Counted from the stretch's first letter, positions 24,126 to 31,609 are shown. The stretch is DNA of 32,669 bases from Candidatus Gottesmanbacteria bacterium RIFCSPHIGHO2_02_FULL_40_13 (GCA_001779235.1 MFJN01000044.1:24112-56780); one strand, 5' to 3'. Notes: a model not told the origin generated them from the letters alone. Program-made: numbers and translations.

Positions 24126-24539
24126 ATGATTTCGAATACCCAGAAGCATGAGCTTTCCGCTTACTTTTCCGGCCAACCCGTGGATGCGGTCTATTTGTTC
24201 GGCTCGCAAGCCACGGGAAAAGGAAACAAGTTAAGTGACATTGACGTGGCAGTACTGTTTAGTGAAGGACTCGACGATAGGCAGCGGTTTGACTTGCGTC
24301 TCTCAATGATGAGCGATGTGGGTAAGATCTCTCACTTTTATGACAATGCTGAAGTTGTTGATCTGGACAACGTGCCTCTTGCCCTGCAATATCAAGCCAT
24401 TGCCCCGCGTCAGGAATTGTTTGTAAAAAACCGTACTCGGCAAGTACTATTTGAGGCTCGAGTGATGTCGAAGTTTTTTGATTACGTCTATTTTATTAAA
24501 ACAAATACGAGTGTCGGATTAGCCGCTATAATCCGGTAA
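24126..24539 (+). CDS. MNT-type nucleotidyltransferase, MntA-like antitoxin
   Basis: LFGSQATGKGNKLSDIDVAVLF fits GSx10DxD of minimal nucleotidyltransferases; next to a HEPN gene. Confidence 0.88.
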   Translation: MISNTQKHELSAYFSGQPVDAVYLFGSQATGKGNKLSDIDVAVLFSEGLDDRQRFDLRLSMMSDVGKISHFYDNAEVVDLDNVPLALQYQAIAPRQELFVKNRTRQVLFEARVMSKFFDYVYFIKTNTSVGLAAIIR

Positions 24540-24976
24540 TGCAGAAAAAGGAATTATTTATGGACGCTATTGATCGAATACACATACGCCTGAAGTTATT
24601 ACGATCCTATATGAAGAAGCTTTCTCGCTTTGAGCGTTTGACAGAGGAGGATCTTTTAGCAGATGAGGATCGTCGGGTGATGATAGAACGATATTTCCAG
24701 CTTGCATGCGAAGTGGTTATTGATATCGCCAATCTTCTCAATGCCGAGTTTCGATTTCGACCGGCAAATGATGCAAAAGAAAGTATTATCATCCTTGGAG
24801 AAGAAGGGGTGTTGAAGAAAGAGTTTGCCAATCAATTTGCCCCTATGGCGGGATTTCGAAATATTCTTGTCCATGACTATATCGCCATCGATTATACAAA
24901 AGTAGCAGATTATCTCAATAGCCGCCTCGGAGATTTTGAAACCTTCGCTAAAGCAGTAGCGTCCTACCTTGTATAA
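24539..24976 (+). CDS. HEPN-domain (HepT/DUF86-like) toxin
   Basis: RNILVHDY = Rx4HxY HEPN RNase motif, predicted all-helical; start overlaps the upstream stop by 1 nt. Confidence 0.88.
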   Translation: MQKKELFMDAIDRIHIRLKLLRSYMKKLSRFERLTEEDLLADEDRRVMIERYFQLACEVVIDIANLLNAEFRFRPANDAKESIIILGEEGVLKKEFANQFAPMAGFRNILVHDYIAIDYTKVADYLNSRLGDFETFAKAVASYLV

Positions 24977-26433: not shown

Positions 26434-26509
26434 TTCGTAATCTATAGGAACAGTAAAACGAATTCGAAAGACAAAAAGAAGGAAAAGACCCCGCAGAAAT
26501 TTCTGTATT

Positions 26510-26545
26510 TATATTCCATTTTGGCATATTCTATTTTGGAATATA
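26510..26545 (+). promoter_or_regulatory. Putative C-protein operator upstream of the XRE regulator
   Basis: Tandem 15-mers TATATTCCATTTTGG/CATATTCTATTTTGG (13/15 identical), plus 9-bp inverted arms TATATTCCA (26510-26518)/TGGAATATA (26537-26545). Confidence 0.6.
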
Positions 26546-26568
26546 ACATACAATAAGTTAAGAAGATT

Positions 26569-26790
26569 ATGTCCAAAGCTATATACACAAAAGAACATAA
26601 ACATCTGATCGAAAAGCTAAAATCAGCAAGACTGTCAGCCAAACTTGATCAGAAAACTGCGGCAAAACTGCTGAACAAGTCTCAGTCCTATATTTCAAAA
26701 ATGGAATCCGGACAGCGCAGGGTTGATATAGTCCAGTTGAAAAGCCTTGCTGATATTTATAAAAAATCAATTGACTATTTTCTAAACTAG
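26569..26790 (+). CDS. XRE-family HTH regulator, RM controller (C) protein-like
   Basis: 73 aa, LIEKLKSARLSAKLDQKTAAKLLNKSQSYISKMESGQRRVDIVQLKSLADIYKKSIDYFLN; directly upstream of the nuclease gene. Confidence 0.88.
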   Translation: MSKAIYTKEHKHLIEKLKSARLSAKLDQKTAAKLLNKSQSYISKMESGQRRVDIVQLKSLADIYKKSIDYFLN

Positions 26791-26795
26791 TGTAT

Positions 26796-27968
26796 ATGGC
26801 AAAAAAAGATTTTATCCTTCAAGGATTTACTGAACGTACGCATACAAAAGCAATTCTGCGTTTATTTGATATTAAAAACGTTGAAGAAGTCATTCTGAGC
26901 GTTGCTTTCGTAACTGAAGACGGAGTTCGCTTAATAGAAAGCAAGTTACACAAATACGCAAACAAAACGAAAGTATTTTCAGGTATTAGAAATGATATAA
27001 CGTCTCGTCAAGGACTAAGTCGACTATTAGGATTAGGGGTTTCTGTATACGCTGTAGATACAGGAGCTCGCAATATTGTTTTTCATCCAAAACTATACTT
27101 AGTACGAGGAAGTGAACAAGCTCGATTACTTATTGGCAGTGCTAATTTAACGCTTGGTGGTCTAAACAATAATATCGAGGCTAGCCTAATTCTAGATCTG
27201 GATCTTGATAATTTCTCTGACAGAAAGTTTGTATCAAAAATTGTAAATCAACTTCTTAAGCTACCAGGTTTATATAATGACCATGTTTTCTTGATTGAAT
27301 CCGAGCCTCAACTGCTCGCTTTACAAACAAGCGGACGGCTACTTGATGAATCAGAAGCCTCACCGCCACACCCAACCACCACGGCTTTCGCACCTTCAAC
27401 AGATCTGATTCCACGTATTAAACTAAAAGTTTTACCATTACATCGATCGTCTCGTCGCGCAAAAGCTCAACCCACTACTCATCGTAGGATCAGTGGAACC
27501 CCTCAAACTCAAAAACAGTCACAAGTCTCAACTAATCTAGAACTTGTATGGCAAAGCAAGCCCTTAACCGAACGTGATCTTAATATTCCCAAAGAGAGAG
27601 GTACACACGCCACTGGTTCAATCAACTTAGACAAAGGGCTTCTTGAAGATAATATAGACCACAGACATTATTTTCGTGATGCGGTCTTTGCTCATCTCCA
27701 ATGGGAGCCTCGACAATCAGGTACGGTAGAAGAAACTGAAGTTCGTTTTCAGTTGGTTATTAAAGGAATCTATTATGGTGAATTTCCACTACAAATACGG
27801 CATAGCACAGACACAAATAGTGAAACTTATAAACAACACAATGCTATGACTCGATTAAGCTGGGGATCAATTGGAGACCATGTGAAACGAAAAGACTTAC
27901 TGAGTCGCACTTTGTCACTCTTTAGAGACGAAACTGATCCGAAAAGATTTATACTCGAAATTGATTAA
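26796..27968 (+). CDS. PLD-superfamily restriction endonuclease-like protein (NgoFVII/BfiI-like)
   Basis: HPKLYLVRGSEQARLLIGSANLTLGGLNNNIEASLIL is a single PLD-type active site (HxK...GSAN...E); separate C-terminal domain; adjacent C protein and methyltransferase. Alternative GTG start at 26790. Confidence 0.78.
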   Translation: MAKKDFILQGFTERTHTKAILRLFDIKNVEEVILSVAFVTEDGVRLIESKLHKYANKTKVFSGIRNDITSRQGLSRLLGLGVSVYAVDTGARNIVFHPKLYLVRGSEQARLLIGSANLTLGGLNNNIEASLILDLDLDNFSDRKFVSKIVNQLLKLPGLYNDHVFLIESEPQLLALQTSGRLLDESEASPPHPTTTAFAPSTDLIPRIKLKVLPLHRSSRRAKAQPTTHRRISGTPQTQKQSQVSTNLELVWQSKPLTERDLNIPKERGTHATGSINLDKGLLEDNIDHRHYFRDAVFAHLQWEPRQSGTVEETEVRFQLVIKGIYYGEFPLQIRHSTDTNSETYKQHNAMTRLSWGSIGDHVKRKDLLSRTLSLFRDETDPKRFILEID

Positions 27969-29605
27969 TTAATTCCTACATCGGTTGATATTCTCTGTCT
28001 TCTGTCATGAAGTTTTTGCCAATTATTTAACAACTGTTGTTGATCTGATAAACTTATCCTCAACGCTTTTAAAACAGCATGATCCTGCTTTTCTAAAACC
28101 TCTCTGGCCGATAATGTTTTGACAGCCGTATCTAGATTAGCAAGATTTACGGTTAGTTTCTTTGGCAATGGAATAAGCAACTTTTCAATCTCAGAAGGAA
28201 CCAGCTCTAGCACCCCTCCTCCATAGTGTCTTCCTTCTAATTCTGCACTTAATGCAGTCAATGAGTTTAGAAAAAAACCAACTAGTTGTTTACTGGCTTT
28301 ATTGTGAACACGAATTCTGTAGGCTGTATCAGTAGTGAATGCTCCAATTTTATTAAATATTAAGCGAGGAATATCATGAGATCTTTTTAACATCCCTATC
28401 TCTGTTGCGTAAACGGACGGCACGGAATACCAAGGACTTCGAACACTACATTTATAGCGTAAATGGAGACCTTGTTCTTCTCCATACTGGATATATTTTT
28501 TAGCGATGGAATTGTTTGTTGGTTTATTAGAAAACCATATTAAGTTAGTTGGTTTTCCGTTTTTTCTATTTTCTTGATGCTGTCGTTCATCATAAATGAT
28601 GCCATGACAATGATCACTTCGTCCAAACATTGGATGAGCCCATTTTGATAGGTCATATTTTTGAACTGTTTCATCGGAAACAAGAAAATAGTCATTTGCT
28701 CCAGTCACAATGCCAACATCAACTTCCGCGATATCATTAAAACGATATATATCTGGATGCTCAGCAAGTCGATCTATTAAGTTACGGGTTGATAGGTCTA
28801 ACAGAGCATAGGTCCATTTTCCAGCTACAGTTCTACCATTTAATGATTTAGGAGAAGAAAAAATAATGTCGGGATCTATATCAAGAAATTCTTTTTGTTT
28901 GACAGGATAAATACCAACGCCCTCAGCTTTAGCACTAGTACTGCTTCTTTTTTCCGCGAGAAGTAGTACTGCCCCCTGAAGAGTATTTTTAAACCAAAGC
29001 TCCTCTGGATCGATGATCACTAACCTTTTGCATTCTCTTCCAAGATATGTCCGGAGAGATTGAGCATGAATAATATGAATAATTTCTGCTGGAACCACCA
29101 TTGCTAATCGACCTCCAGGTCGCAACATTGCTAAAGAAGCTAGAACAAATGGAACCCATGCATTCGTGTGCTTGGTAAAGGATAAATTAAGTTCATTAAA
29201 AATTTCCTCTGATCTTTGTTGAAACTCTTTTGGAAGATATTGATATCTAATGAAAGGTGGATTACCAACTACTGCGTCATAAGATAGTTTATTATTTCGA
29301 ATATTATTTAGTGACCACTTAAGAAAATCGCCTATTTGTATATCTATATGAGCAGAAATATTTTTTGCTCTTATTTGGGCTTTTTTGGCTTCATTTTCAT
29401 TAATTTCAAAACCCAATACAGAAACACCTTTCATTCCATGAACTTTATCAATAGCTTCAAAAAAAATACCGTCTCCACAACTAGGCTCAAGGATAGTTCT
29501 CGGTTTTATACTTCTAACCCACTTTGTTAAAAAAACCGCTAGATCAAAGGGTGTATAATAACCTCCACGTAATTTTTGTTCGCTCTCGTTTATTTTAAAA
29601 TTCAT
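27965..29605 (-). CDS. N6-adenine DNA methyltransferase, gamma class (TaqI/Eco57I-like)
   Basis: GGYYTPFDLAVFLTKWV (motif X), TILEPSCGDGIFFEAI (motif I), DAVVGNPPFIRYQYLP (motif IV NPPF), long C-terminal region consistent with a target recognition domain. Confidence 0.92.
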   Translation of the reverse strand: MNFKINESEQKLRGGYYTPFDLAVFLTKWVRSIKPRTILEPSCGDGIFFEAIDKVHGMKGVSVLGFEINENEAKKAQIRAKNISAHIDIQIGDFLKWSLNNIRNNKLSYDAVVGNPPFIRYQYLPKEFQQRSEEIFNELNLSFTKHTNAWVPFVLASLAMLRPGGRLAMVVPAEIIHIIHAQSLRTYLGRECKRLVIIDPEELWFKNTLQGAVLLLAEKRSSTSAKAEGVGIYPVKQKEFLDIDPDIIFSSPKSLNGRTVAGKWTYALLDLSTRNLIDRLAEHPDIYRFNDIAEVDVGIVTGANDYFLVSDETVQKYDLSKWAHPMFGRSDHCHGIIYDERQHQENRKNGKPTNLIWFSNKPTNNSIAKKYIQYGEEQGLHLRYKCSVRSPWYSVPSVYATEIGMLKRSHDIPRLIFNKIGAFTTDTAYRIRVHNKASKQLVGFFLNSLTALSAELEGRHYGGGVLELVPSEIEKLLIPLPKKLTVNLANLDTAVKTLSAREVLEKQDHAVLKALRISLSDQQQLLNNWQKLHDRRQRISTDVGIN

Positions 29606-29620
29606 AACAATAAATTTATA

Positions 29621-30205
29621 TTAATCTCCTCTTCTTATTAAACCACAAAACTTGCCGCGAATCTCGAGCTCTTTTGGATAGATATTGATTATCGATTTAT
29701 TTCGAGGCTCTAGATAGACTTTTCCATTTCTATTGCGATAAACTTTTAGTGTTGCGCCTTTTTCTGTAACTGCAACCACCCTGTCACCATCTTCTGCAGT
29801 TTTCTGATGTCTAACAACGATAATATCCCCATCAAGAATATTATCATCCTTCATGCTCGTCCCTAGTACTTCAAGAGCATAATAATCGCCTTTTCTGCTT
29901 ATCATAGACAATGGAACGTCGATTGGCTCCGGATTTTCAATCGGCTCTATTGGAATGCCTGCGGCGATGACGCCAAGCTTGAAGATGCGTCCAAATTGTC
30001 GAATTGTTGTGCTGATTCCGCGCGCTATGTTATCGGTTTTCTGGAGAAATCCCCTCGTTTCAAGCTCTTCTACGAAATGCTGGGCGGTACTGACGGACTT
30101 TCGAAAATGTCTCGCTATCTCATGAAGCGACGGAGAATAACCATTGTCTTTAACGAAAATCTTGATGAAGTCCAGTACTTGTTTTTGCTTCGGCGTTATT
30201 ACCAT
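29621..30205 (-). CDS. lexA: LexA-like repressor (winged HTH plus S24 peptidase)
   Basis: Winged HTH KQKQVLDFIKIFVKDNGYSPSLHEIARHFRKSVSTAQHFVEELETRGFL; Ala-Gly cleavage site VIAAGIPIEP; catalytic Ser in LGTSMKDDNILDGD; Lys in TEKGATLKVYRN. Confidence 0.9.
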   Translation of the reverse strand: MVITPKQKQVLDFIKIFVKDNGYSPSLHEIARHFRKSVSTAQHFVEELETRGFLQKTDNIARGISTTIRQFGRIFKLGVIAAGIPIEPIENPEPIDVPLSMISRKGDYYALEVLGTSMKDDNILDGDIIVVRHQKTAEDGDRVVAVTEKGATLKVYRNRNGKVYLEPRNKSIINIYPKELEIRGKFCGLIRRGD

Positions 30206-30318
30206 AGATGTATTGACTTTTATTCGTGTTTGCTCTATTATTAATTTATTACTTTTTTATGACTATTGTCAAGAAGTAAAAAATCTGAGATTACCCCAGT
30301 TTAGCTTCAAAACACCCA

Positions 30319-30457
30319 TGTCATTGCAAGCACATTCGACAAGCTCAGTGTAAACTCCGCGAAGCCAAGTACCGTCCGGTACCTGGCGAAGCAATCTCTT
30401 TTTTCCTGATGGGATTGCCACGTCTCCCGATGTGACATCGGGGTCCTCGCAATGACA
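30319..30457. repeat. Palindromic interspersed repeat (TGTCATTGCAAG...CTCGCAATGACA type)
   Basis: Outer arms TGTCATTGC/GCAATGACA; internal GTACCGTCCGGTAC, GGCGAAGCAATCTC, GATTGCCACGTC, CCCGATGTGACATCGGGG; same class as 14635-14750. Confidence 0.8.
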
Positions 30458-30477
30458 ACCACAAAGTGGGGTAAGGT

Positions 30478-30497
30478 CAGGAGTAAGATGAGTATAC
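30478..30497 (+). repeat. Right inverted repeat flanking the RM cassette (copy 3)
   Basis: CAGGAGTAAGATGAGTATAC, 19/20 identical to the reverse complement of 26414-26433. Confidence 0.75.
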
Positions 30498-31609
30498 AAG
30501 CTTATGTAAGTACTGATATAATTTTAGATATCATGAATAATACTGCCCAGCCTCAGGAATTGATAGAGTTGACTAAGCTTCAGGAGAAGCTAACCGGTGC
30601 TTCTCTGCCTGATGATCTGCGGGATAAGGCTACAGCAATGATTGTACAGGCTTCCCTCAGTTATAAGTATAACGGCCAGCTGTCTGGTTTTGAACAGGCA
30701 GCCAAATATATTGACTGGATAGTCAATATCCCTTGGATGAAAAGAAGCAGTGATCTTTTGGATATTGTACAGGCAAAACAGGTGCTCGATAAATATCATT
30801 ACGGCTTGGAACAGATTAAAGACAGAATTTTGGAATATCTATCAGTCATGAAGCTCAATCTTACTCAAACAAATCAGGACAAAAATGTTCACAATTTCAT
30901 GCGGGCGCCTATTCTTTTTTTTGTAGGGTTAGTCGGCACCGGAAAAACGACTATTGCCGCCTCGATTGCCCAGGCTATGCAGAGAACCTTTGTCAGAATC
31001 CCTTTTGGAGGTATGGGATCAGCTCTTGATTTGAGGGGACAATCCAGAATCCATCCCGACGCCGAAGTAGGTCAGTTAATTAAGGCTCTGAAACGAGCCG
31101 GCACTAAAAATCCTGTTATCCTACTTGATGAAATTGACCGCGTCGCCGACCATGCCAGAGCTGATATTATGGGAGTCCTCATTGAGATTCTTGACCCTGA
31201 ACAAAATGCGGCCTTTGTCGATCACTTTATTGATTATCCTTTTGATCTTTCGGAGGTACTGTTTATCGCCACGGCAAACAATACAACCAATGTTTCAACA
31301 GCCGTCATGGACAGGCTGGAACCAATTCAAATGCCATCCTATAATGATGAAGAAAAAATTGTTATCGGAAAGAGTTATGTTTTTCCTAAAGTAATAGTAA
31401 ATTCCGGATTAAACGGTTCACAGCTTCAGATAGATGACGAAGTCTGGTCTTTGATTGTCAGACCTTTAGGATTTGATTCGGGCATCCGGACTCTTGAGCG
31501 GACAATTAACGGCATCTGCCGTAAAGTTGCCAGGATGATTGTGGAAAATAAAGGCAACAGTTTTCATATAACAGGCGAAAACATCAAACAATTCTTACCA
31601 AAATGGTGA
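30488..31609 (+). CDS. Lon-type AAA+ ATPase without N-terminal LAN and C-terminal protease domains
   Basis: YIDWIVNIPWMKRSSDLLDIVQAKQVLDKYHYGLEQIKDRILEYLSVMKL, Walker A GLVGTGKTT, Walker B PVILLDEIDR, LFIATANNTTNVSTAVMDRLEPI are Lon AAA+ hallmarks; ends at GENIKQFLPKW. Start uncertain (30488 or 30533; the ORF-track ATG at 30452 lies in the repeat). Confidence 0.85.
   Translation: MSIQAYVSTDIILDIMNNTAQPQELIELTKLQEKLTGASLPDDLRDKATAMIVQASLSYKYNGQLSGFEQAAKYIDWIVNIPWMKRSSDLLDIVQAKQVLDKYHYGLEQIKDRILEYLSVMKLNLTQTNQDKNVHNFMRAPILFFVGLVGTGKTTIAASIAQAMQRTFVRIPFGGMGSALDLRGQSRIHPDAEVGQLIKALKRAGTKNPVILLDEIDRVADHARADIMGVLIEILDPEQNAAFVDHFIDYPFDLSEVLFIATANNTTNVSTAVMDRLEPIQMPSYNDEEKIVIGKSYVFPKVIVNSGLNGSQLQIDDEVWSLIVRPLGFDSGIRTLERTINGICRKVARMIVENKGNSFHITGENIKQFLPKW

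Follow-up and report, generated by a model that had tools for sequence, protein, structure and literature searches.

LexA-type repressors ahead of, or fused to, DNA methyltransferases of unrelated systems in mostly uncultured Patescibacteria suggest that self-protection may rise upon DNA damage

LexA-type repressors are of the kind that cut themselves upon DNA damage, and here they are found in front of, or fused to, methyltransferases of numerous unrelated restriction systems in the tiny, mostly uncultured Patescibacteria, which suggests that self-protection in these organisms may rise when DNA is damaged. The reading that we favour, with a probability of about 0.6, is that such a LexA is a dedicated autorepressor of the methyltransferase whose self-cleavage would raise methylation upon DNA damage, including damage by the restriction enzyme. 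We see about even odds for the wider proposition that the Patescibacteria have captured a LexA-family autoproteolytic switch as an interchangeable module for unrelated methyltransferases, by adjacency or fusion. This would make protection of the chromosome damage-inducible and amount to transcriptional restriction alleviation for Type II systems, within a two-regulator chassis whose catalytic core is swapped.

The window, that is, the whole stretch of 32,669 nucleotides analysed, belongs to a patescibacterium with a genome of 1.29 Mb in 70 contigs. Open reading frames and family matches fall where the initial annotation had placed them, with an XRE regulator and a PLD-fold nuclease on the plus strand against a LexA and a methyltransferase on the minus strand (Table 1). 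The two operons converge, the 3' ends of the R and M genes share 4 bp, and lexA is separated from the methyltransferase gene by 15 nt. The nuclease may start at GTG 26790 or at ATG 26796, the latter giving 390 aa and being conserved in relatives. The entire cassette was found again in locus L034, with 86.7% DNA identity throughout, and its conservation is far beyond chance. As part of the best overall explanation, the cassette is probably a Type II-like restriction-modification system in which each half has a separate dedicated regulator. Support was found for the two-regulator layout that had been proposed from the window, and this arrangement is more general than was then known.

Table 1. 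Positions of the cassette genes, putative regulatory sites and flanking features in the window.
Feature	Coordinates	Strand	Remarks
XRE operator (putative), two tandem imperfect dyads	26511..26544	+	ahead of XRE gene, C-protein-operator-like layout
XRE-family regulator, C-protein-like	26569..26790	+	73 aa, first gene of restriction operon
PLD-fold nuclease, presumed restriction enzyme	26796..27968	+	H97-x-K99 ... N117
Gamma-class N6-adenine methyltransferase, M.Eco57I-like	27965..29605	-	546 aa, NPPF motif
Dedicated LexA paralogue	29621..30205	-	194 aa, intact autoproteolysis residues, first gene of methyltransferase operon
lexA-M promoter and operator (putative)	30235..30272	-	TTGACA, then three 11-bp direct repeats
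Inverted repeat	30319..30457		15-nt arms, 87%
MntA antitoxin and HepT toxin	24126..24976	+	type VII toxin-antitoxin
Lon-like protein	30452..31606	+	AAA ATPase and lid

The LexA of the window combines the DNA-binding domain PF01726 with the S24 peptidase domain PF00717 and scores 141.3 bits against the LexA equivalog model TIGR00498 (cut-off 110.95). Its cleavage site, serine and lysine, reported earlier as intact, are Ala-Ala-Gly at positions 81-83, Ser117 and Lys154. Gly83, which follows the scissile bond (A82-G83), and both catalytic residues are invariant in 36 of 36 aligned LexAs, fusions included. The genome encodes a second LexA, 36% identical to the first, on contig 57 and divergent from uvrB. 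Such uvrB-linked LexAs occur across the class and track family lines in the tree, and the LexA of the window does not. The latter shares the fold, cleavage site and catalytic dyad of the LexA that governs an SOS regulon, but it apparently controls one operon, belongs to a separate clade, has its own operator and coexists with the uvrB-linked copy.

In order to define this clade, LexA loci were gathered by protein search from 142 relatives, GTDB contigs, 382 genomes of the class and 382 of the phylum, and copies at least 98% identical were removed before counting. Close relatives come from Gottesmanbacteria, Collierbacteria and further Patescibacteria. A methyltransferase was linked, either downstream on the same strand or fused, to 38 of the 40 LexAs at least 42% identical to that of the window and to 3 of the 62 at 35-42% identity (Fisher p 5e-22, kinship ignored). 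The 38 comprise 35 assigned by an automatic rule and 3 by hand, namely L012 and L046, with Type IIG enzymes, and L140, with a cut C5 gene. In the phylum sample, 32 of 382 species have a LexA (E value 1e-36 or lower), and the new loci include 17 LexA-methyltransferase fusions and 4 adjacent pairs (21 of 26). The first batches were unselected and the later class batch was partly picked for long open frames, so the number of fusions should not be read as a frequency. The LexA-methyltransferase adjacency is conserved in the genome and GTDB contig searches, and this LexA is not an SOS regulator placed there by chance, so that two of the three conditions under which the initial annotation would have been refuted turned out in its favour. 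In phage and plasmid collections no close LexA relative above 44% identity was found, nor, on plasmids, a LexA-methyltransferase fusion covering 80% of the query.

The maximum-likelihood tree separates a canonical clade of 59 rows (support 98/95), none of them linked to a methyltransferase, from a sister group (support 89/84) in which 41 of 46 rows are linked. The linked and unlinked labels change 8 times on this tree vs 34.7 times when shuffled. The LexA of the window is a member of a patescibacterial clade tied to DNA methyltransferases. Distant LexAs (L072/L135, L073/L134, L074/L133) also stand directly ahead of methyltransferases, which points to a possible repeated origin of the link. L008 and L015 carry LexAs of the linked clade with no adjacent methyltransferase; in the first of these (L049 7606-8019, the same locus as L008) the LexA is followed by a 137-aa open reading frame with no Pfam match. 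In L144, inside the methyltransferase-fusion clade, LexA is fused to about 180 aa of unassigned domain, perhaps a decayed or a new type of fusion.

The methyltransferase of the window matches M_Eco57I_C (E 6e-86), N6_Mtase and Eco57I, as well as PADLOC MTase_II over nearly its full length (634 bits). The enzymes linked to this LexA clade are unrelated to one another, with gamma, alpha and beta N-types and C5 enzymes among them. Their families are gamma N6 (PF02384/PF07669), the beta/N4 type (PF01555), D12 (PF02086) and C5 with Vsr (PF00145, PF03852). Along the LexA tree the methyltransferase class, taken from the catalytic motif, switches 19 times or more. Even LexAs 87-90% identical to that of the window are joined to four different families: a gamma enzyme in L034, C5 with Vsr in L035 and L036, D12 in L037 and a PF01555 enzyme in L038. 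LexA therefore appears to be a reusable module. The restriction side varies as well, the same position being occupied by a BglII-like gene in L038, an HNH gene in L036 and a DUF7687 gene in L037. DNA similarity between the window and L035 is confined to 29621-30282 (lexA and its promoter, 83%) and 26484-26741 (XRE gene and promoter, 84%). Between these two blocks L035 holds different R and M genes and nothing similar to the window. The XRE block is 84-85% identical in L035 and L052 despite their differing M and R genes. The conserved lexA and XRE blocks around differing R and M genes point to a chassis, lexA-M converging on XRE-R, with an exchangeable core. Several fusions (L141, L142, L143, L177) are likewise followed by a convergent open reading frame and an XRE gene.

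Upstream of lexA-M operons, 11-bp direct repeats overlap the promoter. In the window TTGACA is followed by AATAGTCATAA, AAAAGTAATAA and ATTAATAATAG. No simple palindrome is shared among the regions upstream of lexA, and the signal consists of these direct repeats. Self-matching at a lag of 11 reaches 0.497 in the first set vs 0.316 in shuffled sequences (sd 0.014), 0.391 vs 0.302 in a set thinned to unlike sequences (z 8.2, n=30) and 0.407 vs 0.295 in an independent phylum set (z 9.2, n=23). Upstream of uvrB-linked lexA no such excess is present (0.306, z 0.5). The regions upstream of other genes also display a small excess (0.307 vs 0.283); the lexA-M value lies well above this uneven background. 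The operator of the window has a single perfect match in its own 1.29-Mb genome, at lexA-M. With a 20-mer version, G184 and G240 (0 mismatches) and G107 (1 mismatch) each give a single hit, immediately in front of lexA, and G088 and G268, which have slightly different operators, give none when up to one mismatch is allowed. LexAs whose recognition helix contains Gln accompany TMATAA-type repeats in 18 of 18 cases and those with His mostly TTTCG/TTTCT repeats (17 of 23; p 7e-7), an agreement that is suggestive only, because the tree contains just three independent switches.

From these observations we strongly infer that LexA represses lexA-M. It would bind the 11-bp direct repeats that cover its own promoter, thereby throttling lexA and the methyltransferase together, while the XRE protein, of C-type, would govern the restriction operon. 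The trigger would be single-stranded DNA with RecA filaments, arising from damage or from the cassette nuclease cutting an under-methylated chromosome. LexA would then cut itself at Ala-Gly, lexA-M would be derepressed and methylation would rise until the chromosome is safe. In a new host devoid of repressor, the same circuit would give early methylation ahead of restriction. Unrelated R and M genes would be swapped in and out of the chassis formed by the lexA and XRE modules. The invariance of the autoproteolysis residues fits a control of methylation by DNA damage, and from general LexA biology we infer induction by RecA-stimulated self-cleavage, RecA dependence being assumed because these residues are conserved.

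A simpler circuit, which we consider unlikely although it deserves the most weight among the alternatives, would be a steady-state autorepressor: LexA would set the dose of methyltransferase and allow an early burst of methylation in a new host, and its self-cleavage would not serve damage signalling or would be triggered otherwise. Autorepression by the direct repeats over the promoter is indeed the best-evidenced part of the scheme, and the fusions would couple the doses of repressor and enzyme in the manner of methyltransferases with an N-terminal repressor domain. A plain repressor, however, would be expected to lose Gly83, Ser117 or Lys154 sometimes, whereas all three are invariant, fusions included.

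On the restriction side, the XRE protein matches HTH_3 (E 5.1e-13) and, weakly, PADLOC Control_protein (E 6e-5), with other XRE models scoring better. Its counterparts in L034, L035 and L052 are 80-92% identical. In agreement with a C-protein layout, this small protein heads the R operon behind two tandem dyads of its own (ATATTCC-N5-GGCATAT / ATATTCT-N5-GGAATAT), which are conserved in L035 and L052. The nuclease matches PLDc_2 above cut-off (E 8.3e-7) and RE_NgoFVII weakly. The earlier designation of this protein as BfiI-type stands only in the sense of a distant PLD-fold relative, nothing closer being supported. BfiI (PDB 2c1l) is its nearest solved structure and the nuclease has the HxK...N residues seen in BfiI (here H97, K99, N117), which are invariant in three homologues, but the similarity extends over about 90 residues only (E 3.5e-6) and the partner here is a methyltransferase of M.Eco57I type. 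An AlphaFold2 model computed from three sequences was too poor for use (pLDDT 44).

The weak similarity to BfiI and the unusable structure model leave room for the view that the PLD protein does not act as a restriction enzyme, in which case the locus would be a solitary methyltransferase plus its regulator. We nevertheless regard this as improbable, since sister cassettes have a BglII-like or HNH nuclease in the same slot and convergent PLD-methyltransferase pairs recur, a methyltransferase with a neighbouring presumed endonuclease being found in L034, L130, L176 and two alphaproteobacterial plasmids. In L130 (G050) the convergent pair is 64% and 53% identical to that of the window and comes 123 nt after a quite different LexA (28%). 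The Yoonia and Roseobacter plasmids carry the pair without a LexA or XRE module. In the viral contig L176, too, neither LexA nor XRE accompanies the PLD nuclease (48% identical) and the methyltransferase (57%), which adjoin a terminase-like gene and a further gene of phage-like character. LexA is therefore not essential to the pair.

Traces of mobility surround the XRE end of the cassettes, where L037 (9570-11526), L052 (5167-5897) and L034 (10646-10975) share the palindrome CAGAAATTTCTG and a GC-rich, possibly structured stretch. An Rfam search of this stretch near XRE returned tRNAs only. In L037 and L052 a large serine recombinase adjoins the XRE end. The 3' end of the L037 recombinase meets a tRNA gene, and L034 has a tRNA gene close to its XRE end. 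Palindrome, recombinase and tRNA probably mark an integrative element that uses tRNA sites. No direct or inverted repeats common to both cassette ends, as insertion marks, were found. Considering these neighbours, and that many prophages are controlled by S24 repressors, LexA might control the excision or transfer of a mobile element that carries the cassette, with the methyltransferase as a passenger. This is very improbable given that the operator is present a single time per genome, at lexA-M, that the recombinases lie outside the LexA operon, with none in the window, and that fusions tie LexA to methylation.

The idea that an ordinary SOS LexA merely adjoins the cassette by chance is ruled out for practical purposes, for despite the score above the LexA equivalog cut-off the canonical copy is the one beside uvrB on contig 57, the copy in the window falls in the other clade, and its adjacency recurs with unrelated methyltransferases.

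Among known regulators of this sort are C-proteins, BrxR and repressor-domain methyltransferases. Methyltransferases of the SsoII/EcoRII type carry their own N-terminal repressor domain. In these, as in the LexA-methyltransferase fusions, a helix-turn-helix domain in the same chain controls the dose of enzyme, but the fusions described here add a complete LexA with its peptidase domain, which could in principle be inactivated by self-cleavage. In C-protein Type II systems such as PvuII and AhdI (reviewed in PMC3874152), the restriction operon begins with a small XRE protein that has its own operator of tandem dyads, and a dedicated factor sets the R/M balance, whereas the window adds a second, autoproteolytic repressor of the LexA family at the head of the methyltransferase operon. 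Where that review touches on LexA or SOS, no LexA-headed methyltransferase operon is described; it does report that unbalanced Type II activity induces SOS (PMC3874152). A literature search found no LexA-type repressor heading, or fused to, a methyltransferase; a study of patescibacterial SOS (Sanchez-Osuna 2017) was outside its reach.

Type I systems meet unmodified sites by restriction alleviation (PMC11109961). For EcoKI, as would be the case here, the chromosome is shielded from its own enzyme once damage or recombination has left unmodified sites, but there ClpXP degrades the nuclease subunit (PMC11109961, PMC4231737) and here the methyltransferase would be induced. Self-protection when damage and repair leave sites unmethylated is understood for Type I through this degradation and much less for Type II, for which control of the methyltransferase by LexA, if true, would be a direct transcriptional answer. 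The recurrence of the link with unrelated methyltransferases and as fusions implies that selection has favoured it several times, or that it has persisted through many exchanges, in a phylum whose genomes are very reduced. These loci are also a source of small and portable, possibly damage-responsive repressors with recognisable operator sequences.

Beyond the cassette, the inverted repeat listed in Table 1 (GTCATTGCGAG...CAATGAC) is flanked by the lexA promoter and the Lon-like gene and is typical of a small mobile repeat. The Lon-like protein has no N-terminal or protease domain, and of 59 relatives almost all have such a short Lon of about 350-400 aa in addition to a full-length Lon. On the other side of the cassette, some 1.6 kb away, the nucleotidyltransferase antitoxin MntA and the RNase toxin HepT both score above their NCBIfam cut-offs.
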